IMG/VR virus record: IMGVR_UViG_3300025417_000018
Span: 39,402 to 103,401 of that record
DNA length: 64,000 nucleotides
Direction: 5' to 3' (one strand)
Source: a virus
A program made the translations under genes and the position numbers. A model generated the notes under the pieces. The model saw only the letters and a program-made list of their open reading frames with translations. It did no database searches and had not been told where the DNA came from. Shown one piece after another: positions 38,701 to 54,174 of the stretch (its first letter is position 1; each line of letters opens with the position of its first letter).

Positions 38701-41027
38701 TCTATGTGTTTGGAAACAAATGGAATGACGCCACAGTTGAAGCCACATTAGAATACTATGTAGAGGGTGCTACAGAATTCAAGTACATTAAAGATATTGT
38801 AGCTACACCAAGACCAGACTTAAAGTATTGGCATATTAGTAACAATGATGATTTAGAAACGTTTGATTTTAGTTGGAGACCCAATCCACATAGCCCGTTG
38901 CAAATTTATCAGTGGGAAGATAACGGACCCAGATACGCAGACCCTGACGTACTAAAAGATGCCGAAGTTGTTTTTATGAAACGTACTGAAGAAATCACAC
39001 GTAGTATTGTAAAACATTACAAGATTAAAACAACACTTGAGGATTTAATTAATGAGCATCAAGATGAGGTGTTTTGGGCTATCAATCCTGACTTAAGTTA
39101 CGATAAGTTTGACTTTAGTTGGAGACCTAACGAAGAAAACTTTCTACACATAAATGTATTTGGTAATGAATATAGTATGAACACACAGACATACTATGTT
39201 AACGCTCCTATGTACATGTTAGGTCACCGTGAATATAATTACGTTGACAGTCAAACAGTAGAAATTGATAGTAACTTAAGTATGTTCTTTGTGGATAGGG
39301 GTAATCTTGAGTCAACAAACAGATATAACGCACTCAAATTAAGATATCCGCAAATTCAAAAAACACGTTATTTAAACAGCTGGGTAGACACCATCACTCG
39401 TTGTTTAACTAAATCGGAAACCAATTTATGTTGGATATTGAACAGCGAGTTAGACTATACTGATTTTCAATTTGACTTTTATCCTAGCCCATGGCAAATG
39501 AAAATGGTGCATGTATTTGGAACTCAATGGAGTCATTGGGGAACTACATTCATGGTAAACAAAGAAACATTCCCTGAAGATACAAAATATGTAAAAGTGA
39601 TTGAACACTTGAATGTATTGAATTTTGTTAAAAAGAAAATAGCAGTAGCCACTGATTGTTTGTATGATGTTGTGTTAATAGACCATGGTAATCATGGAAA
39701 CTTTAAAAAAGAATTCAGGGCTGTAAATGACACTATCGTTGAAAAAACTCTTAAGCCAACAACTATCATTAAGTTTGATAACAGTTACTTACAGACACTT
39801 AAAAACTATTTAAAGACATTAGAAACTAAAAAAGAACATTATGTTTGGATTTGCAGTAGCATTTGTGACTATAAAGATTTTGATTTTAGTTATATTTGCG
39901 ATCCATATGCTAAGGATCAACTGCATGTGTTCCCTAGCGACAAGCAAAAGTTTGGTGATACGTTCTTAGTAGATGTTAATAAATTTTTAAGTCTTGTTAA
40001 TGATATGATTAGACTAGAGGATTATGAAAAAGTTAACTTCAATCAACATCAACGTGTTAAACGACTATCTGCTCCAGTTATATTGGTAAAAGAAGATACC
40101 CACGTTGAGTTGTCTAACTATGACTTTACATTTCCGTATGCAGAGTTTATTACAGGTGATAATGAAAACTTAATCAATCTAAAAGATGAAAATGAACCTA
40201 TAAGTTTATGGGCACCTGACCACAAAAACATTGTTATTAAAAGTACTGGCGGCACTAGAATTACAGTCCCTAGTGAGGCTAAAAATTATGTTGAGCGTGA
40301 GTTATATGATTATCCTTATATCACTAGGTCACCTAAGTTATTAAAATCTAATCCGTTAGATATTATCTTTTTAAGTAATGGTGAAGCATGTGCTGATGCA
40401 AATTATGAGCATTTGTTAAGTGTTACTAAAAACTTAGGTAATAAAGTAATACGTTTGGACAATATTAAAGGTCGTGTACTTAGTCAACATACTGCGGCGT
40501 ATAACTCATCAACACCATGGTATTTCTTAGTTAACGCAAAATTAAAAGTGAATAAAACATTTGATTTTAGTTGGCAGCCTGACAGGTTACAAATACCAAA
40601 ACACTATATCTTTAATGCAACTAATCCCGTAAATGGATTAGAATATGGTCACCAAGCTATTGTTGCTAACAATAAAATATTAACTCTTAACACCAAAGTA
40701 AGAGGGTTAGACTTTACATTGGATAGTGAACACGAAGTAGTCCCATTAAACTGTGGTATCGCTATGTATAATTCTAGCGCATGGGACACTTGGCGTACTG
40801 CTTTCCGTGAAACAATCAAACTAAGACATAGTGGCACTGATGAAAATAAAGAACGTTTACATGCTTGGTTAAATATTGGTAACGGTAATTTTGGTGAAGA
40901 AAGCAAAAAAGGCGCACATGATGCTATGGATTACTATGACTCAGTGGGCGGAGACTTGCAAAAATTAATGTTAAGTTACGACTGGGAATGGTTATTTAAC
41001 ATTTATCAACAAAGTATTGATTTATAA
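35715..41027 (+). CDS. Giant aromatic-repeat protein with C-terminal glycosyltransferase-like domain, 1,770 aa
   Basis: About twenty units of ~66 residues each centre on F-D-F-S-W-x-P-D-P-x-x-P-x-Y-I-Y-x-W/F-G-N-x-W, followed by an E-Y-x-x-x-G-A-T-E-x-K-Y-M end. Fourteen units (about 36080-38800) are well conserved; the first and the last five are diverged. No signal peptide or membrane segment. The last ~260 residues repeat, in the same order, blocks of the protein at 12643: IFLSNGEA, RLDNIKG, HTAAYNSSTPWYFLVNA, NGLEYGHQ, WRTAFRETIKL, LNIGNGNFGE. The FDFSW unit also appears inside that domain, so the repeats may have grown from it. It closes the tailoring operon. Enzyme, scaffold or modification substrate are all possible. 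Confidence 0.7.
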   Translation: MLRDVFYYGEKPNAHPREKHATSFEDALSQATTEHFWIINERCDYRDFDWDFDFELLPDEDVWAQDHINVWPSQYQKDSGTWLCPNRSDYLMVYRADVDPLQFKELEISKNWKILENIDREQFDFKWHPDPSDPPYIYVFGNQWHSGAIMPTVEYHVPGAINRKYVIDKIAILAQSPRLFKIIHPVIKFDFSWVPDPTSPPYIYVFGNNQYPGTIMPTIEFHVEGATERKYIDDFTPELVRRPEDFEILEDIDKLAFNFSWVPDPTSPPYIYVWGNQWNKPEDKASVRYVVEGATEIKYMEERAIRLPCMDNWRVPVHVAEGSFDYSWEPNPNDPPYVYQFGTQWQKTDGPQYYIEGATELKYVDNPVSLVVCYQFLNWQIPMNIDRSTFDFSWHPDLTEDPYIYQFPSQWQHSGGPRFVVEGATEFKYIDVQTATAKVDMDHWAIPEGCITEGFDFSWHPDIQDEPMIYQFGTQHQKTGGPIFTAVGCTMDSPIKYVDTIKAIAQSTTENWVTHEDVLDFDYSWHPDATEEPYIYQWGNKHYSSELKPTVEYIVPGATQIKHMSQDVKLAVSKNWKLHPSEVDKTKFDMTWRPDPTSPPYIYVWGNKHVPGNIIPTLEYIVEGATEYKFMEELLEVVPEFERWTMVQAIDIKKFDLTWRPDPREPAYIYVWGNKWIPGELKSTIEYHYPGATERKYMGDVEVLPEQELWRVYQEPVDFDMTWRPDPREPAYIYVWGNKWIAGELQPTIEYHCLGASERKYMGDVEVVPQYERWIEYQPVDRNKFDMSWRPDPREPAYIYVWGNKWIAGELQPTIEYRCPGATEKKYMAEPAEVLPIIENWKILQNVENFDFSWRPDPREPDYIYVWGNKYINAELQATLEYHCPGATERKYIGEVDVQPEWDKWNILIPVNKNSFDFKWRPDPREPAFIYVWGNKFNSAEFEPTVEYHCPGATEKKYMHDKVASTLPDMSKWKTLIPVESFDYSWRPDPMDPPYIYVFGNKWNDATVEATLEYYVEGATEFKYIKDIVATPRPDLKYWHISNNDDLETFDFSWRPNPHSPLQIYQWEDNGPRYADPDVLKDAEVVFMKRTEEITRSIVKHYKIKTTLEDLINEHQDEVFWAINPDLSYDKFDFSWRPNEENFLHINVFGNEYSMNTQTYYVNAPMYMLGHREYNYVDSQTVEIDSNLSMFFVDRGNLESTNRYNALKLRYPQIQKTRYLNSWVDTITRCLTKSETNLCWILNSELDYTDFQFDFYPSPWQMKMVHVFGTQWSHWGTTFMVNKETFPEDTKYVKVIEHLNVLNFVKKKIAVATDCLYDVVLIDHGNHGNFKKEFRAVNDTIVEKTLKPTTIIKFDNSYLQTLKNYLKTLETKKEHYVWICSSICDYKDFDFSYICDPYAKDQLHVFPSDKQKFGDTFLVDVNKFLSLVNDMIRLEDYEKVNFNQHQRVKRLSAPVILVKEDTHVELSNYDFTFPYAEFITGDNENLINLKDENEPISLWAPDHKNIVIKSTGGTRITVPSEAKNYVERELYDYPYITRSPKLLKSNPLDIIFLSNGEACADANYEHLLSVTKNLGNKVIRLDNIKGRVLSQHTAAYNSSTPWYFLVNAKLKVNKTFDFSWQPDRLQIPKHYIFNATNPVNGLEYGHQAIVANNKILTLNTKVRGLDFTLDSEHEVVPLNCGIAMYNSSAWDTWRTAFRETIKLRHSGTDENKERLHAWLNIGNGNFGEESKKGAHDAMDYYDSVGGDLQKLMLSYDWEWLFNIYQQSIDL
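36080..38800 (+). repeat. Tandem ~200-nt coding repeat, 14 conserved copies
   Basis: FDFSW-type starts recur at about 36083, 36284, 36484, 36683, 36883, 37077, 37272, 37475, 37678, 37870, 38070, 38263, 38460 and 38657, a period of 190-203 nt. Copies between about 37680 and 38600 are very similar at DNA level, suggesting recent duplication or recombination. Confidence 0.85.
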
Positions 41028-44806: not shown

Positions 44807-44823
44807 CGGGTAAATCCGTTATT
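44802..44823 (+). terminator. Hairpin at the gene end, abutting the tmRNA promoter
   Basis: AATAACGG (44802-44809) and CCGTTATT (44816-44823) are perfect 8-bp arms with a 6-nt loop. There is no U-run, so termination is uncertain. The right arm overlaps the -35 element of the next promoter. Confidence 0.5.
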
Positions 44824-44850
44824 GACAGTATTATCAAATAAATATATACT
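44822..44850 (+). promoter_or_regulatory. Sigma70 promoter of the permuted tmRNA
   Basis: TTGACA at 44822-44827 and TATACT at 44845-44850 are separated by exactly 17 nt. The predicted start, about 44857, is just where the acceptor piece of the tmRNA should begin. Confidence 0.8.
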
Positions 44851-44856
44851 GAGAGT

Positions 44857-44921
44857 TATTGTTGTATGAAGTGAGCCGAAAGGCATTCTGGACGCGGGTT
44901 CGACTCCCGCCAGGTCCACCA
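44857..44921 (+). ncRNA. ssrA: tmRNA acceptor piece
   Basis: It contains a GCC-GAAA-GGC stem-loop, then ATTCTGGAC, a T stem-loop (GCGGG-TTCGACT-CCCGC, 44894-44910), the acceptor 3' strand CAGGTCC, discriminator A918-equivalent at 44918 and encoded CCA at 44919-44921. The GGACGCGGGTTCGACTCCCG stretch is the near-universal tmRNA 3' end. It is not half of an ordinary tRNA: no D or anticodon arm lies upstream. Confidence 0.85.
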
Positions 44922-44932
44922 AAAGGTATTAT

Positions 44933-45055
44933 ATGGAATGGCATTGGTTTTATTCAATAGGTATTATCTGGGTAGTAGTAAATGTATGGGCACTTGTTGC
45001 CGATCATGGCCCAGTAGATCCTGAATTAGAACAGCTATGGAATGATAATTTTTGA
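44933..45055 (+). CDS. Membrane microprotein in the tmRNA intervening segment, 40 aa
   Basis: The frame has an AAAGG ribosome-binding site 6 nt upstream of its ATG and ends 1 nt before the tmRNA coding piece. It therefore fills almost the whole segment between the two tmRNA halves. Residues 5-23 (FYSIGIIWVVVNVWALVA) form a membrane helix, followed by an acidic tail (DPELEQLWNDNF). If real, it is translated either from the unprocessed tmRNA precursor or from a separate transcript. No homologue recognised. Confidence 0.5.
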   Translation: MEWHWFYSIGIIWVVVNVWALVADHGPVDPELEQLWNDNF

Positions 45056-45056
45056 T

Positions 45057-45216
45057 GGGCCTGACTTGGTTTCGACAGGGTGATAAGTACGTAAATGGAC
45101 AACTCGGTAGGCGATGACCGTAAATCAAGCAAAACTTATAAATGCAAACGATAGCGTTTATTCTTTAGCGGCGTAAGCCACTATTGGGTAGGATATACCT
45201 CGAAACAGAAAATACC
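45057..45216 (+). ncRNA. ssrA: tmRNA coding piece with tag ANDSVYSLAA
   Basis: It begins GGGCCTGACTTGGTTTCGAC, the conserved tmRNA 5' end. A stem CGGT/ACCG downstream (about 45104-45119) is where pseudoknot 1 lies. The resume codon GCA opens the tag frame 45144-45176: A-N-D-S-V-Y-S-L-A-A then TAA. The tag keeps the AND start and LAA end needed for ClpXP/ClpAP recognition. Only ~40 nt separate the tag stop from the terminator, so pseudoknots 2-4 are absent, as in known two-piece tmRNAs. Confidence 0.85.
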
Positions 45217-45245
45217 AAAGCCCACTTATATGTGGGCTTTCTTTC
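45217..45245 (+). terminator. Intrinsic terminator of the tmRNA gene
   Basis: AAAGCCCAC and GTGGGCTTT form a 9-bp stem with a 6-nt loop, followed by CTTTC. It is close behind the tag region and ends the precursor. Confidence 0.85.
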
Positions 45246-45319
45246 AATCTTTGTGACTACAATCACATACATCTTAGATAATAAAAATTATAATAACGTT
45301 TTAAAAAGGAATTAAAAAC

Positions 45320-47213: not shown

Positions 47214-47984
47214 ATGAAAAAAACATACCGAACCATTTTTATTAGTGATGTTCATCTTGGTACAAGAGATTGTAAAGCAGAACAACTTAATAATTTCTTA
47301 AAACACAATACGTGTGAAACACTTTACTTAGTGGGAGATATTATTGATGCTTGGAAAATTCAACAAAATAAATGGCGTTGGAAACAAAGTCATAGCAATG
47401 TAGTTCGTAGAGTTTTAGGACATGCCAAACGTGGCACTAGAGTTGTGTATGTAGCAGGAAATCACGATGAATTTCTTAGGCCGTTAATACCGTATGGATT
47501 GGGATTTGGTGCAGTAGAAATTGTTAATCAAACTGAGCATATAGGTATTGATGGCAGACACTATTTGGTAACGCATGGGGATTTGTTTGATGGGATTACT
47601 AAATTAGCACCCTGGTTAGCCTTTTTAGGTGACAAGATGTATGATATTGTATTAGAATTAAACAGTAAATTCAATGCGTTACGACATAAACTAGGATTAG
47701 GTTATTGGAGCTTAAGTAAATTTTTGAAACACAAAGTTAAAAAAGCCGCAGACTTTGTGTTTCAGTTTGAAAAAAATATAACAGCTTATTGTAAAAAGCG
47801 TGGATTTGATGGAGTAATATGCGGACACATACATCATGCAGAAATAAAAATGATAGATGATGTGATTTACATGAATGACGGTGACTGGGTAGAATCAATG
47901 ACTGCATTAGTAGAACATCATGATGGGCATTGGGAAATAATAACTTGGACGAAAGCAAACGATGACAGTATTAGTATTAACTAA
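47214..47984 (+). CDS. LpxH-like calcineurin-fold phosphatase, 256 aa
   Basis: All metal-binding blocks of the calcineurin-like family are present in order: D12-x-H14 (SDVHLG), GDIID (41-45), GNHDE (82-86), HGD (121-123) and GHIHH (204-208). The length and the WRWKQSHS and GDWVESMTALVE segments match the family annotated as UDP-2,3-diacylglucosamine diphosphatases, which hydrolyse a lipid A precursor at the inner membrane. Members paired with glycosyltransferases, as here, may act on other lipid or sugar diphosphates. Overlaps the next gene by 23 nt. Confidence 0.75.
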   Translation: MKKTYRTIFISDVHLGTRDCKAEQLNNFLKHNTCETLYLVGDIIDAWKIQQNKWRWKQSHSNVVRRVLGHAKRGTRVVYVAGNHDEFLRPLIPYGLGFGAVEIVNQTEHIGIDGRHYLVTHGDLFDGITKLAPWLAFLGDKMYDIVLELNSKFNALRHKLGLGYWSLSKFLKHKVKKAADFVFQFEKNITAYCKKRGFDGVICGHIHHAEIKMIDDVIYMNDGDWVESMTALVEHHDGHWEIITWTKANDDSISIN

Positions 47985-48846
47985 GTTAGAACGAAACGAA
48001 TACGAATCAAATAAATTGATTGAAAGTTTTGAAAGCAAGGGCATTAAAGCCATGATGGCTCACCCTGACGATTTTGATATTGTCGTGAATAGAGATATTC
48101 GTAAAGGTATCAAGTATAAAGGTCAAGACATGGAGTTACCTAGACTAGTACTAGTTAGATTAGGTGCAGGTATTCTCCCATTCCAATTAGCAGTTATCAG
48201 ACATTTTGAACAATGCGGTATTCCATGTGTAAATGGAAGCGTTGCAATCGAAACTGTTAAAGATAAATTGCGTACCAGTCAAATACTAAGTCGTGCAGGA
48301 ATTCCGATCCCGAACACAATGTTGGTACGTTGGCCTATTGAAGATAAATTGGTTAGTGAAAACATTGGATTCCCCTGTGTAGTTAAAGTTGTTACCGGTA
48401 GCTATGGCGAAGGTGTTCATTTATGTGAACGTAAAAAAGATTATAAAAAACTTGTAGAGTTTGTAGAAAAACTTGGAAACAAGAAAACCATGATTGTACA
48501 AGAATACATGGGCCATAGACCAGGTGAAGATTTGCGTGTGTTAGTTATTGGCGGTAAAGTTGTAGGTGCAATGAAACGTACAGCGCCTGAAGGAGACTTC
48601 CGTGCTAATATCACAGGTGGCGGTACTGGTGAAAATTACCCTCTCACAGAAGAAATTGAATTCATGGCTAGAGAAACAGCACATGTATTAGGTTTAGACA
48701 TTGCCGGTATTGATTTATTGTTTGACGAAAACGGTTTCAGAGTTTGTGAGGCTAACAGTAATCCAGGATTCTTTGGCTTTGAAAAATTCTGTAATGTAGA
48801 CGTTGCAGATATCATTACAGAATACATTAAATTCAAAGCAAAATGA
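47962..48846 (+). CDS. RimK-like ATP-grasp ligase, 294 aa
   Basis: The sequence follows RimK/glutathione-synthetase-type ATP-grasp proteins: LRTSQILSRAGIPIPNT (hinge), FPCVVKVVTGSYGEGV (ATP-binding lysines), IVQEYMG, GEDLRVLVIGGKVVGAMKR, RANITGGGTGENYPL, and the metal-binding end VCEANSNPGFFGFE. Such enzymes join an amino acid (often glutamate) to a carboxylate of a protein, peptide or cofactor. Phage copies are known. The gene is coupled to a phosphatase and a glycosyltransferase. Substrate unknown. Confidence 0.8.
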   Translation: MTVLVLTKLERNEYESNKLIESFESKGIKAMMAHPDDFDIVVNRDIRKGIKYKGQDMELPRLVLVRLGAGILPFQLAVIRHFEQCGIPCVNGSVAIETVKDKLRTSQILSRAGIPIPNTMLVRWPIEDKLVSENIGFPCVVKVVTGSYGEGVHLCERKKDYKKLVEFVEKLGNKKTMIVQEYMGHRPGEDLRVLVIGGKVVGAMKRTAPEGDFRANITGGGTGENYPLTEEIEFMARETAHVLGLDIAGIDLLFDENGFRVCEANSNPGFFGFEKFCNVDVADIITEYIKFKAK

Positions 48847-48947
48847 AATATTTTATAATTAGCATGTTTGTGCTTTGGATTGGATTAACTTTAATTTTAG
48901 CCATTAAAGAAACATTTTATGAAGAAAATACTGATAATAACGGATAA
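48843..48947 (+). CDS. Membrane microprotein, 34 aa, overlapping two genes
   Basis: It starts at an ATGA overlap with the ATP-grasp stop and ends 29 nt inside the glycosyltransferase gene in another frame. Residues 3-21 (YFIISMFVLWIGLTLILAI) are a membrane helix with a short acidic tail. No clear ribosome-binding site, so translation would rely on coupling. It may anchor the flanking enzymes or be a coupling device only. Confidence 0.4.
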   Translation: MKYFIISMFVLWIGLTLILAIKETFYEENTDNNG

Positions 48948-49923
48948 TTTACCGGATCAAATCAATGGCGTTGTCACGACTTACAAAAATCTTGAGGCTC
49001 CTGCGATACTGGATGGTTATACTATTGATTATATTGACCCCAGGTGGTTCAGCTATATTGATTGTCCTGGCTACAACGAAGTCAAACTTAGCTATCCAAG
49101 GAACATGGGCAAGAAGATTGCGAAGATTGATCCGGATCATATCCACATCGCCACAGAAGGTCCTCTTGGTTTGTGGGCTAGAGCATATCTTGCAAAATGT
49201 GGTATTAGGCACAATACTGCTTATCATACTAAATTCCCTGAAGGACTTAACAAACTATTTGGAATACCTGAATCACTTACTTGGCGCTTTGTACGCTGGT
49301 TTCATAAGCATAGTGGCAAGGTTTTAACAACGACTGACAGCATGGTTGCTGAATTACGTAAGCATGGATTTGACGGTGAAGTTATTCCATGGACACGTGG
49401 GGTTGATAGAACAATTTTCAATACTAAACAAAGACATGAGTATAGTGAAGTGGGTGTAATTGATTTATTGTGCGTTGCACGTGTTAGCAAAGAAAAAAAC
49501 TTAGAAGACTTTTTTGAATTAGATTATCCGGGCGCAAGAAAAACAATGGTTGGTGATGGTCCTATGTTAGAAACGTACAAGAAAAAATATCCTGATGTTA
49601 ATTTTGTTGGTTTCAAAACAGGTAAAGACTTGGCAGTCTATTATGCAAATGCTGATGTATTTGTATTCCCCAGCCAATGGGAAACATTTGGTATTGTAAT
49701 GATTGAGGCAATGGCGTGTGGTACGCCAGTTGCGGCATACCCTTGTCAAGGTCCTATGGATGTAATTGAACAAGGGGTCACGGGGTTCATGAATGAGAAC
49801 CTAACCCATGCTATTGATAGCTGTTTACAATTAGACAGAAATCAAGTACTGAAAGGTAGTTTTCGTTGGTCTTGGAAACGTGCATGGGAAATCTTTAGAG
49901 ACAACCTAGTTCCTATCAAATAG
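48919..49923 (+). CDS. GT4-family glycosyltransferase (GT-B fold), 334 aa
   Basis: The N-terminus MKKILIITDNLPDQINGVVTT has the loop (P-x-x-x-N-G-V) of GT4 enzymes. Further blocks: HIATEGPLGLWARAYL, TAYHTKFPE, PWTRGVDRTIFN, LLCVARVSKEKNLE, MVGDGPMLE, and the catalytic-domain signature PSQWETFGIVMIEAMACGTP with E-x7-E. The family uses sugar nucleotides; this subgroup resembles lipid (phosphatidylinositol/diacylglycerol) mannosyl- or glucosyltransferases. With the LpxH-like phosphatase it could modify host or virion-associated lipid or sugar. Donor unknown. Confidence 0.8.
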   Translation: MKKILIITDNLPDQINGVVTTYKNLEAPAILDGYTIDYIDPRWFSYIDCPGYNEVKLSYPRNMGKKIAKIDPDHIHIATEGPLGLWARAYLAKCGIRHNTAYHTKFPEGLNKLFGIPESLTWRFVRWFHKHSGKVLTTTDSMVAELRKHGFDGEVIPWTRGVDRTIFNTKQRHEYSEVGVIDLLCVARVSKEKNLEDFFELDYPGARKTMVGDGPMLETYKKKYPDVNFVGFKTGKDLAVYYANADVFVFPSQWETFGIVMIEAMACGTPVAAYPCQGPMDVIEQGVTGFMNENLTHAIDSCLQLDRNQVLKGSFRWSWKRAWEIFRDNLVPIK

Positions 49924-49932
49924 TCAATCTAT

Positions 49933-49968
49933 CCAAAATTTGACAATAAATCGTTTTGGGCATATAAT
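49933..49968 (+). promoter_or_regulatory. Sigma70 promoter P1 with inverted repeat around the -35
   Basis: TTGACA (49940-49945), 17-nt spacer, TATAAT (49963-49968). Arms CCAAAA (49933-49938) and TTTTGG (49954-49959) flank the core TTTGACAATAAATCG, which is shared with P2. Confidence 0.85.
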
Positions 49969-49996
49969 ACGTACTTAATCACTTGAAAGGTACAGT

Positions 49997-50263
49997 ATGA
50001 AAATGTCACTTAATGAAATCAATACTTTAATTGCTCAAGATAATACTATTGTTTCTCAATTGCCAACAAGCGAGGGCCAAGTTACTAGTGTTATTTTTGA
50101 GAAAAACTTTCAGGGCCTAGAAATCCCAGTATTGACTAAAGCCCCATATATGGGCCGAACTAAAATTAGTTGTGGCAACAAAGCATTGTATGTTGTTAAA
50201 ACTAGTGAAAAGTCTTATGACATTCACAATAGTAAAACTGCATACTTTCGTTTTCAAAAATAA
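49997..50263 (+). CDS. Hypothetical protein, 88 aa
   Basis: A small soluble protein behind promoter P1 with a GAAAGG ribosome-binding site. The N-terminal third is helical (LNEINTLIAQDNTIV), the rest strand-rich with TRK-type basic residues (YMGRTKISCGNKALYVVK). No motif recognised. First of three short genes each having its own promoter of near-identical design. Confidence 0.65.
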   Translation: MKMSLNEINTLIAQDNTIVSQLPTSEGQVTSVIFEKNFQGLEIPVLTKAPYMGRTKISCGNKALYVVKTSEKSYDIHNSKTAYFRFQK

Positions 50264-50269
50264 ATGAAA

Positions 50270-50314
50270 ATTATAGTCCCAAAATTTGACAATAAATCGT
50301 TTTGGGACTATAAT
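50270..50314 (+). promoter_or_regulatory. Sigma70 promoter P2 inside a perfect 15-bp inverted repeat
   Basis: TTGACA (50286-50291), 17-nt spacer, TATAAT (50309-50314). Left arm 50270-50284 (ATTATAGTCCCAAAA) and right arm 50300-50314 are perfect reverse complements; the right arm includes the -10 and the -35 sits in the 15-nt loop. Confidence 0.85.
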
Positions 50315-50344
50315 ACTTGTATTGATTGATTAAAGGAGTTGAAA

Positions 50345-50566
50345 ATGGCTTTTGAAAAAATCGTACTAGACAAAGTTGCTAAGGTTCTCAAAGATGATAA
50401 CCGCGCTAGTTTTACATGCGGTACACTTTTTGTTGAGTGTTCAGAGGCTGAGGCTCGCAAGGTCTTTCACAAACTAAGCAAAGATTATGGTTTGGGTAAA
50501 GTGCAAGTTAGTGGCCCAATGAACGGCCCTGTTATGCCCGAATTTGCATACGATTTTGTTGCATAA
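50345..50566 (+). CDS. Hypothetical protein, 73 aa
   Basis: The ATG at 50345 is chosen for its AAAGGAG ribosome-binding site; a TTG two codons upstream is less likely. A compact alpha/beta protein with a helical start (FEKIVLDKVAKVLKDD) and a ferredoxin-like arrangement (FTCGTLFVECSEAEARKVFHKL). No cofactor motif. Function unknown. Confidence 0.65.
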   Translation: MAFEKIVLDKVAKVLKDDNRASFTCGTLFVECSEAEARKVFHKLSKDYGLGKVQVSGPMNGPVMPEFAYDFVA

Positions 50567-50573
50567 AAGCAAC

Positions 50574-50612
50574 ATACCCGAATTTGACAATAATTCGGGT
50601 ATCTGCTATAAT
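50574..50612 (+). promoter_or_regulatory. Sigma70 promoter P3 with 11-bp inverted repeat around the -35
   Basis: TTGACA (50584-50589), 17-nt spacer, TATAAT (50607-50612). Arms ATACCCGAATT (50574-50584) and AATTCGGGTAT (50592-50602) are perfect but differ in sequence from those of P1 and P2. A further stem (TGTTGC/GCAACA, 50557-50574) lies at the end of the upstream gene. Confidence 0.85.
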
Positions 50613-50643: not shown

Positions 50644-50892
50644 ATGCGTAGAAAACAAATCATTCAAGGTCTTAATAACAGTCAAAAAGTCCGTGTTATT
50701 GTAGACGGTGTGGGGTTCTACACTACTGTTCAAGGTGCTACTGAAATGTGTTTTACCGAGCAACGGATTGCAGTTTGGAATGCATTGGAAGTTATCGGTC
50801 GTGAAAAAATCGAAGGCTTTGGTGGACAGACCAGGGTCTATGATGAAAAAATGAATGCTAAAACCATCAGTTTTCAAGTTAACTTAGTTTAA
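50644..50892 (+). CDS. Hypothetical protein, 82 aa
   Basis: The ATG at 50644 has a CGGAG ribosome-binding site and lies 32 nt behind the -10 of P3; an upstream in-frame start would fall inside the promoter and is rejected. Basic N-terminus (MRRKQIIQGLNNSQKVR), then strands. No motif recognised. A gene 9 nt downstream is probably co-transcribed. Confidence 0.65.
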   Translation: MRRKQIIQGLNNSQKVRVIVDGVGFYTTVQGATEMCFTEQRIAVWNALEVIGREKIEGFGGQTRVYDEKMNAKTISFQVNLV

Positions 50893-51709: not shown

Positions 51710-52813
51710 ATGGCATCTCATGTATCAGACAATCTCACTATTACTAGTGTACAGGCCCGTAAAGCAATTTTACGTGCATTCAAAGCAAAGCGTCCTATCT
51801 TTTTGTGGGGACCTCCCGGTATCGGTAAATCAGAAGTGGTAGCCGAAGTTACTGAAGAATTAGGTGGTCACATGATTGATTTGCGTATGGCGCAAATGGA
51901 ACCAACTGACATTCGTGGTATTCCATTCTTTAATCGTGACTTGAATAAAATGGATTGGGCGTCTCCAGTTGACTTGCCTGATGAGGAACTTGCAAAAGAA
52001 TATCCAATCGTGGTTCTTTTCTTAGATGAAATGAATAGTGCAAGTCCAGCTGTGCAGGCTGCGGGTTATCAATTGATTCTTAACCGTCGTGTTGGTAAGT
52101 ATGTATTGCCTGACAATGTTGTAATTGTTGCGGCGGGTAATCGTGATAGTGACAAAGGTGTTACATATCGTATGCCAATGCCCCTTGCTAATCGTTTCTT
52201 GCACTTAGAAATGCGCCCTGACTTTACTGCATGGCAAAACTGGGCAGTTGAAAAAGGTATCCATAAGGACGTGGTTGGTTACTTGTCTTTCGCTAAACAA
52301 GACTTGTATGATTTTGATAGCAAATCGGCTAGCCGTGCATTCGCTACTCCACGTAGCTGGTGTTTCGTTAGTGACTTGTTGAATGATGAGGCTGATACCG
52401 ATACTGATACCTTGTTTAACTTGGTAGCAGGTGCAGTTGGTGAAGGTCTTGCAGTTAAGTTTGCGGCACACCGCAAGATTGCAGGTAAGATGCCCGACCC
52501 TGCTGATATCTTGTCAGGTAAGGTAACTGAACTTAATGTAAAAGAAATTAGTGCAATGTACTCATTGACCGTTTCAATGTGCTATGAATTGCGTGATGCA
52601 CTTGAAGGTAAGAAAGTTAATCAAAAACAATTCCATGACATGGCTGACAATTTCTTGTCATACATCATGAAAAACTTTGAAACTGAATTGGTTGTGATGG
52701 GTGCCAAGATTGCATTGAAAACTTACAAGTTGCCAATCGAGCCAAGTCAATTGAAACACTTTGATGAGTTTCACAAGAAATACGGTAAATACATTGTAGA
52801 AGCCGGTAACTAA
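51710..52813 (+). CDS. MoxR-family AAA+ ATPase, 367 aa
   Basis: Walker A is GPPGIGKS (34-41) and Walker B is VVLFLDEMNS (101-110), followed by RVGKYVLPDNVVIVAAGNRDS (sensor 1 region) and MPLANRFLHLEM (arginine-finger region). MoxR ATPases act as chaperones with a VWA-domain partner, loading metals or remodelling complexes. The partner gene follows behind a separate promoter. GGAG ribosome-binding site. The phage substrate is unknown. Confidence 0.85.
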   Translation: MASHVSDNLTITSVQARKAILRAFKAKRPIFLWGPPGIGKSEVVAEVTEELGGHMIDLRMAQMEPTDIRGIPFFNRDLNKMDWASPVDLPDEELAKEYPIVVLFLDEMNSASPAVQAAGYQLILNRRVGKYVLPDNVVIVAAGNRDSDKGVTYRMPMPLANRFLHLEMRPDFTAWQNWAVEKGIHKDVVGYLSFAKQDLYDFDSKSASRAFATPRSWCFVSDLLNDEADTDTDTLFNLVAGAVGEGLAVKFAAHRKIAGKMPDPADILSGKVTELNVKEISAMYSLTVSMCYELRDALEGKKVNQKQFHDMADNFLSYIMKNFETELVVMGAKIALKTYKLPIEPSQLKHFDEFHKKYGKYIVEAGN

Positions 52814-52819
52814 TTAAAA

Positions 52820-52835
52820 CGGGACTTCGGTCCCG
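52820..52835 (+). terminator. UUCG hairpin behind the MoxR gene
   Basis: CGGGAC-TTCG-GTCCCG, a 6-bp stem with the extra-stable UUCG tetraloop, followed by CTTTAATT. Possible weak terminator or mRNA stabiliser; it abuts promoter P5. Confidence 0.7.
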
Positions 52836-52841
52836 CTTTAA

Positions 52842-52870
52842 TTGACAATAAATCAATATTATTGTATACT
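52842..52870 (+). promoter_or_regulatory. Sigma70 promoter P5
   Basis: TTGACA (52842-52847), 17-nt spacer, TATACT (52865-52870). Core TTGACAATAAATC as in P1, P2 and P4, with ATTGA/TCAAT arms. Confidence 0.8.
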
Positions 52871-52896
52871 ACTAGTATTGTAAATAAGGAACATAT

Positions 52897-54174
52897 ATGA
52901 GTGACGTTATTGCCCCAACTAAAAAAAGTAAGCGTAGCAAAAAATTTGAAAATCTAGTAGGTCCAACTGACAGTAAAATTGATGCACAAGCCCGTGAACG
53001 ATTGATTACTGCCCGTGTTGGTTTACTATTACGTCAATCATTTTTTGGTAATCTTGCAACACGTTTGCAATTGGTTAATGCCGATGAATGGTGTTCAACC
53101 GCGGCAACTGATGGATTGAAGTTTTACTACAATTCACGTTTCATTATGTTGCTAAAGCCTAAAGAAGTTGAATTCTTAGTAGGTCATGAAGTGTTGCACG
53201 TGGTATATGACCACATGGATCGTAGAGGTGACCGTGACCATCAAATCTTTAATATTGCAAACGACTATGCAGTTAATGCAGACTTGAAACGACATAAGGT
53301 AGGTGAGTTTATTACAAGTGTGCCTTGTTTGTATGAGGCAAAATATGATGGTCTACCTAGCGAAGAAATCTATGATGACCTCATGAAAAATGTTCAACAT
53401 ATCAATATTGACGATTTGGTTGATAAAATGATTGATGACCACATGGATGGTGATGGTGACATGGATGGTGATGGTGATGGTGACCAAACAGGTAAAAATA
53501 AACGTCCAAAGATGAGTCCTGAGGAACGTGAGCGTGTTCGTCAAGAAGTCAAACAGGCTATTATTAATGCCGCAAGTACATGCGAGGCAGGTCAGTTGCC
53601 AAAAGGTGTTGAACGATTAATCAAGCAGGCTACTAATCCAGTTATGCCCTGGCGTGAGTTGATTCAAACAAACTTGACAAGTGCAATTCGTACTGATTAT
53701 AGTTGGATGCGTCCTTCACGTAGAGGTTGGCATACTGATGCTATTATGCCCGGCATGACTCCCGGTGAAGAAATTGATGTTGTTGTGACACTTGACATGT
53801 CAGGTAGTATCAGTCAAAAACAAGCACAAGATTTCTTAGGTGAAATCGGTGGCATGATGAATGCGTTTGATGGTTATAAGGTCCATGTATTCTGTTTTGA
53901 TACTGAAATTTATAATCCAAAAGACTTTCATAGTGACAACATGGATGACATTGCAGAATACGAACCAATGGGCGGTGGTGGTACTGACTTTGATTGTATT
54001 TTCAAGTATCTTAAAGATAACGCAATTGAACCAAAACGTTTGATTGTGTTTACTGATGGATATCCCTTTGGTAGCTGGGGCGACCCTGACTATTGTGATA
54101 CTACATGGATCATTCATGGTGATAAAAATCCAAATCCCCCATTTGGTACTTATGCTCTCTATGATGAGAAATGA
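52897..54174 (+). CDS. VWA-domain partner of MoxR with zincin-like N-terminus, 425 aa
   Basis: The N-terminal half has H-E-V-L-H (97-101) in VGHEVLHVVYDHM, as in DUF2201-type metallopeptidase-like domains. Residues ~180-200 are an Asp/Gly-rich linker (repeated MDGDGD units). The C-terminal half begins IDVVVTLDMSGSIS, with a D-x-S-x-S metal-ion-dependent adhesion site (300-304). Combined with the MoxR gene this is the standard MoxR/VWA pair. Whether the HExxH is catalytic is unclear. Overlaps the next gene by 4 nt. Confidence 0.8.
   Translation: MSDVIAPTKKSKRSKKFENLVGPTDSKIDAQARERLITARVGLLLRQSFFGNLATRLQLVNADEWCSTAATDGLKFYYNSRFIMLLKPKEVEFLVGHEVLHVVYDHMDRRGDRDHQIFNIANDYAVNADLKRHKVGEFITSVPCLYEAKYDGLPSEEIYDDLMKNVQHINIDDLVDKMIDDHMDGDGDMDGDGDGDQTGKNKRPKMSPEERERVRQEVKQAIINAASTCEAGQLPKGVERLIKQATNPVMPWRELIQTNLTSAIRTDYSWMRPSRRGWHTDAIMPGMTPGEEIDVVVTLDMSGSISQKQAQDFLGEIGGMMNAFDGYKVHVFCFDTEIYNPKDFHSDNMDDIAEYEPMGGGGTDFDCIFKYLKDNAIEPKRLIVFTDGYPFGSWGDPDYCDTTWIIHGDKNPNPPFGTYALYDEK

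Follow-up and report, generated by a model that had tools for sequence, protein, structure and literature searches.

Shared Promoters and Differing Inverted Repeats in a T4-Type Phage

Why should neighboring promoters carry their −35 elements within inverted repeats whose arms differ from site to site? The original prediction, made for three promoters (P1, P2, and P3) of a viral contig, took the change in sequence with pairing kept as a sign of selection on structure, be it an RNA hairpin ending the upstream message, a cruciform, or a repressor site. The virus record comprises 103,401 bases, and the window, by which we mean the whole stretch of 64,000 nucleotides analyzed, covers record positions 39402–103401. 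Because the record encodes Gp23, the major capsid protein of the T4 type (E 1.5e-82), along with a T4 portal (E 2.7e-105), we assign it to a T4-type phage. Cultured phages compared by DNA yielded no near relatives of the promoter region. All features described below lie on the + strand unless stated otherwise. A permuted tmRNA gene of the betaproteobacterial type, with the tag ANDSVYSLAA, is located at window positions 44808–45267 (RF04321, 138.8 bits; RF01850, 134.4 bits), and judging from this type the host may be a betaproteobacterium. The region 14262–35706 holds a run of genes of 250–520 aa, several with matches to radical SAM families, and also a Nol-like carbamoyltransferase; this run is an auxiliary-metabolism island, unusual for a T4-type phage. 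Three enzyme-like genes follow one another at 47214–49923. Two of them, read by eye alone, are a probable metallophosphatase and an ATP-grasp-like ligase; the third is a group 1 glycosyltransferase, whose TAG stop codon (49921–49923) lies 16 nt 5′ of the P1 −35.

The window contains five copies of the core TTGACAATAA, all on the + strand and each directly 5′ of a gene: at P1, P2, and P3, and at two further sites, 51653 (P4) and 52842 (P5). P1, P2, and P3 each reach a sigma-70 hexamer score of 12/12 with a 17-nt spacer, so that the shared core and spacing are present as claimed, and the arm sequences of 6 bp (P1), a perfect 15 bp (P2), and a perfect 11 bp (P3) were likewise confirmed. That the arms differ between sites holds for the outer arm of P2 and for the arms of P3, but the inner arm of P2 is identical to that of P1 (CCAAAA/TTTTGG). 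P1 (49933–49968) is predicted to drive an 88-aa gene (49997–50263), which has the P2 hairpin at its end. The P2 promoter (TTGACA-17-TATAAT, 50286–50314) stands before a 73-aa gene (50345–50566) located between P2 and P3, and the P3 promoter (TTGACA-17-TATAAT with a TG 5′ of the −10, 50584–50612) before an 82-aa gene (50644–50892). Neither the 88-aa nor the 73-aa gene had a match in PHROG or Pfam. The promoter leaders (window 49969–49996 and 50315–50340, and many loci) have the sequences ACTTGTATTGATTGATTAAAGGAG and AGAATCTTAGACAGTTAAATAAAGGAG in common with unrelated sites, which suggests that leader sequences may travel together with promoters.

The two remaining copies of the core are arranged differently. 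At P4 (51653–51681), which lies 5′ of a MoxR-type ATPase gene, the upstream stop codon falls inside the −35 and a hairpin is absent (folding z +0.75). This ATPase gene adjoins a VWA/DUF2201 metallopeptidase-like gene (51710–54174), and relatives of the ATPase are encoded in at least 600 viral stretches. At P5 (52842–52870), a terminator-like hairpin of the ordinary type with a TTCG loop (CGGGACTTCGGTCCCG, 52820–52835) stands entirely 5′ of the −35, into which its T-containing tail extends. The distance from the stop codon to the −35 is 22 nt at P2, 17 nt at P3, and 28 nt at P5. The five promoters of the window span the whole range, from no hairpin through a hairpin forced over the −35 to a compact terminator 5′ of it.

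Pairing Exceeds Chance at P2 and P3 but Not at P1

RNA folding energies were judged against 200 dinucleotide shuffles per site. The 6-bp arms of the sigma-70-type promoter P1, CCAAAA (49933–49938) and TTTTGG (49954–49959), enclose a −35 TTGACA at 49940, and the −10 TATAAT ends at 49968. The computed energy of −4.4 kcal/mol (z −0.25) was equaled by 71 of the 200 shuffles. Moreover, two loci encode homologues of the 88-aa gene (L391, 75% identity; L495, 74%), and both keep the promoter and its leader (TACTTAATCACTTGAAAGGTAC, CTCTTAATCACTTGAAAGGTAC) 5′ of that gene and have lost the CCAAAA. P1 is an ordinary promoter with pairing at chance level, and the proposed selection on structure fails there.

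At P2 and P3 the paired arms exceed chance, and the stem is physically merged with the promoter. The P2 hairpin (50270–50314) starts 6 nt past the upstream stop codon; its arms ATTATAGTCCCAAAA (50270–50284) and TTTTGGGACTATAAT (50300–50314) form a perfect 15-bp stem, whose loop contains the −35 and whose 3′ arm takes in the −10, and fold at −19.0 kcal/mol (z −5.9). The P3 hairpin (50568–50608) begins just past the stop codon and holds the −35 mostly in its loop. Its perfect 11-bp arms, ATACCCGAATT (50574–50584) and AATTCGGGTAT (50592–50602), are lengthened by AGCA/TGCT beyond a small internal loop, and the computed energy is −18.2 kcal/mol (z −5.7). The loops of the two hairpins are 7–15 nt long. 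A U-tract 3′ of the stems is absent at both sites, the tails being ACTTGTAT and CTGCTATA, and a scan for canonical terminators gave no match on the + strand of P2 or P3; a match was obtained only for P3 on the − strand, in a scan whose match total was at chance level. Just 5′ of hairpins that enclose a −35, short GTTGC-loop-GCAAC hairpins are seen repeatedly (L076, L027, L273, and window 50560–50572), and their loop contains the stop codon.

Long Stems Are Enriched Where the Upstream Stop Codon Is Close

We searched viral contigs for the core, for promoters sharing its leaders, and for relatives of two neighboring proteins, and assembled 493 loci with 1,003 distinct TTGAC[ACT]-N16-18-TATAAT sites. 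Genes were called by ORF rules and promoters by consensus, and related sites are partly non-independent. For each site we took the 35 nt 5′ of the −35 and the sequence 3′ of it, and recorded the longest perfect stem that the two can form. As a control, the upstream and downstream halves were re-paired among sites of the same class, which keeps the composition and the consensus of both halves. Sites were classed by distance from the stop codon to the −35, with classes set before the new loci were fetched.

A first split by stop codon position had placed the excess of stems solely at sites where the upstream gene ends a short way 5′ of the −35. When the stop codon lies 13–25 nt from the −35, 19 of the 104 sites have a stem of at least 8 bp (2.2 expected) and 10 of the 104 have one of at least 10 bp (0.33 expected; 0/200 shuffles). 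The newly fetched loci replicated the excess in this class (at least 8 bp at 9/59 sites, 1.0 expected). No excess was seen with the stop codon 41–80 nt away (2 stems of at least 8 bp vs. 0.9 expected), and a small one beyond 80 nt (5 vs. 2.6 expected). A small excess was also seen where a gene overlaps the promoter (18/618 with at least 8 bp vs. 7 expected), and it counts against the explanation that we favor below. Even in the tight-gap class a stem of at least 7 bp is present at 32 of the 104 sites; as most of these sites are without a long stem, the stem is optional. Canonical terminators show the opposite distribution, with 17 of 82 sites at 41–80 nt vs. 2 of 104 at 13–25 nt, and they almost never share a site with a stem that has the −35 in its loop. 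The sequence 3′ of the −35-enclosing stems has a T content of 3.4/8, which, together with the missing U-tract at P2 and P3, makes classic intrinsic termination doubtful. A second geometry, AATAACCC-TTCGG-TTGACA-GGGTTATT, in which the 3′ arm comes directly past the −35, is present at four loci (L414, L419, L485, and L452), apparently from other phage groups.

The Arms Covary

At the orthologous position 3′ of the 88-aa gene, where the window has ATTATAGTCCCAAAA/TTTTGGGACTATAAT, the two loci with homologues of that gene have ATACACCCAATAC/GTATTGGGTGTAT: both arms have changed and the pairing is kept, which supplies for P2 the compensatory changes that the original prediction had proposed to look for in relatives. 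Three loci with a common upstream gene (L229, L263, and L028) carry CCCAAAA/TTTTGGG, CCCAAAG/CTTTGGG, and CCCGAAA/TTTCGGG, respectively, and one more double change separates L390 and L444 from L406. When nine in-register hairpins were aligned, two-sided changes occurred in 5 of 10 pairs, a covariation that 0 of 500 shuffles reached and for which slid controls gave at most 1, although these rows were picked for having stems, so that the alignment serves as a description of the changes rather than as an unbiased test. A fixed-register covariation test over all sites gave a signal that was weak and not particular to one class: the tight-gap sites reached z 3.8 (shift 7), and the far sites reached z 4.4 (shift 8). 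Allowing G-U pairs raised the excess of stems to z 10.2, and allowing A-C pairs to z 6.1; the greater gain with G-U points to the RNA of the coding strand. The step from changed sequence with kept pairing to selection on structure is sound for P2 and for the wider set of promoters, into which P3 fits, and does not extend to P1.

The Hairpin Goes with the Upstream Stop Codon

The position of the hairpins reveals which neighbor they belong to. The computed 5′ base of the hairpin lies a median of 10 nt past the stop codon (IQR 6–17.5), and hairpin position follows stop position with r = 0.81 (63/67 hairpins near the stop). Strong hairpins surround the −35 in 13 of 28 cases with the stop codon 13–25 nt away and lie entirely 5′ of it in 18 of 21 cases with the stop codon 41–80 nt away. 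A promoter is not needed either: strong hairpins are found at 13.0% of the gap-followed gene ends without a promoter vs. 12.4% of those with one, and at 2.4% of operon-internal gene ends, where the next gene follows directly.

Homology gives the same answer. The partner site also has a stem at a rate of 0.65 when sites are matched by homologous upstream genes and 0.23 when matched by downstream genes (base rate 0.26), rates that do not come from independent counts, as the homologous pairs overlap in membership. Loss of pairing in relatives with the promoter kept had been named as what would speak against structural selection. It is found at P1, and also when sites are matched by the downstream gene: the promoter 5′ of the homologous 73-aa gene is kept at eight loci (L125, L128–L132, and L137–L138) and the hairpin is not. 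This apparent refutation was reversed on regrouping by the upstream gene, with which P2 keeps its pairing. The hairpin is linked to the stop codon of the upstream gene and not to the promoter.

A Probable Overlap of the Next Promoter with the 3′ Hairpin of the Previous Gene

The motif is the promoter of the next gene atop the 3′ hairpin of the previous one, and not one promoter-regulating structure. We consider it probable that P2 and P3 are composites, in which the upstream message ends in an RNA hairpin that is overlaid by the next promoter for lack of space. A hairpin starting 1–7 nt past the stop codon of the small upstream gene would close the message of that gene, and the next gene would have its sigma-70-type promoter placed over this hairpin; the two overlap because the gap between stop codon and −35 is only about 20 nt. 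In RNA read from upstream, the loop would be the copied −35 and the 3′ arm the copied spacer and −10, whereas a transcript from the promoter's own start, 3′ of the hairpin, would be free of it. Either the hairpin would stop transcription or it would mark and protect a 3′ end left by Rho-type termination, and each small gene would be its own unit. The hairpins, their covariation, and their anchoring to the upstream stop codon are computed results. The anchoring favors, P1 excepted, the suggestion of an RNA hairpin that ends the upstream message; termination itself, as opposed to protection alone, and activity of the predicted promoters are what we infer from the DNA. A further reading, possible though unlikely, makes the P2/P3-type hairpin a terminator that lacks a U-tract and has the A/T-rich −10 of the next promoter for a tail; a single 45-bp sequence would then both end and start transcripts, with mutual control of passing and initiating polymerase.

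Could the palindromes instead be by-products of mutation? Template switching that copied the spacer and −10, which are under constraint, into the free upstream gap would leave perfect inverted repeats without function, and it fits the exact complement of TATAAT within the upstream arm of P2 and the upstream arms that mirror near-consensus spacers. However, the DNA is equally free where the stop codon lies 41–80 or more than 80 nt away, and stems there are near chance; hairpins are also present at gene ends that have no promoter, and they accompany the upstream gene, all of which renders this origin improbable. A DNA cruciform or single-strand hairpin that regulates the promoter by exposing or hiding the −35 would account for the many sites with the −35 within the loop, but G-U pairs are tolerated more than A-C pairs, and conservation at orthologous positions extends to promoters without arms. 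Hairpins are also equally frequent at gene ends that lack a promoter, and we regard the cruciform as very improbable. A shade less probable still are operator half-sites at which a phage or host repressor would cover the −35. The inner arms CCAAAA/TTTTGG do recur and fit a modest consensus 5′ of the −35; against this, the hairpins follow the stop codon in their position, and arms free of the motif pair equally well (TAGCAGAGA/TCTCTGCTA, AATAACCC/GGGTTATT, ATAGCACAAA/TTTGTGCTAT), so there is no shared recognition sequence, and the proposed repressor site is disfavored. Coincidental complementarity between independent promoter preferences, an upstream CCAAAA and a TTTTGGG spacer, matches the two consensus blocks in the site profile and accounts for many 6-bp cases and for P1, where it stands, but it is scarcely credible as a general account and is refuted for P2 and P3-type stems by re-pairing controls that keep the consensus yet yield far fewer long stems and by the two-sided changes at orthologous gene ends.

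Relation to Known Composite Elements

T4-like phages, among them RB49/phi1, PST, and nt-1, reportedly carry promoter-early stem-loops (PeSLs), composite promoter/terminator cassettes that are said to be defined by their composite nature and not by stem geometry. The elements described here resemble them in belonging to a T4-type phage, in the merging of a sigma-70-like early promoter (here a predicted one) with a stem-loop, and in their location between small genes without an assigned function. The geometry differs: in the 100 kb of RB49 that we scanned, stems mostly flank the −10 (GGGAGTA-gtaaga-TACTCCC) or sit in the spacer, whereas here the loop contains the −35, and spacer and −10 make up the 3′ arm. 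With a different geometry but the same principle and phage group, we regard P2 and P3 as a variant of the PeSL and not as plain members. The 45-nt unit of P2 is identical at two other loci (L059 and L101), beside non-homologous genes, which would be compatible with cassette exchange. The PeSL papers (Arbiol et al., 2010; Comeau et al., 2014) are cited in PMC4177764 and PMC5931544.

Intrinsic terminators of T4-like phages, which this phage group has at longer gaps and which the window has at position 52820, are similarly placed, just past the stop codon and 5′ of the next promoter. P2 and P3 differ from them in their 7–15-nt loops and in lacking the U-tract that, with a GC-rich stem, marks such terminators. 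In E. coli, a stem-loop halts exonuclease trimming of the 3′ end produced by Rho-dependent termination. Hairpins of this kind, at 3′ ends trimmed after Rho, would account for a U-less hairpin at the ends of messages; Rho-dependent 3′ ends in E. coli do undergo processing (PMC7815308).

The range of composite promoter/terminator cassettes is hereby widened, in another geometry, past the E. coli-type phages to include T4-type phages known from environmental viral contigs. The many natural variants supply material for asking if transcription can end at a hairpin that lacks a U-tract. For the phages themselves, clear covariation evidence backs a proposed end signal that is a structure and takes its position from the stop codon, and in their compact genomes the end of one gene is superimposed on the start of the next.
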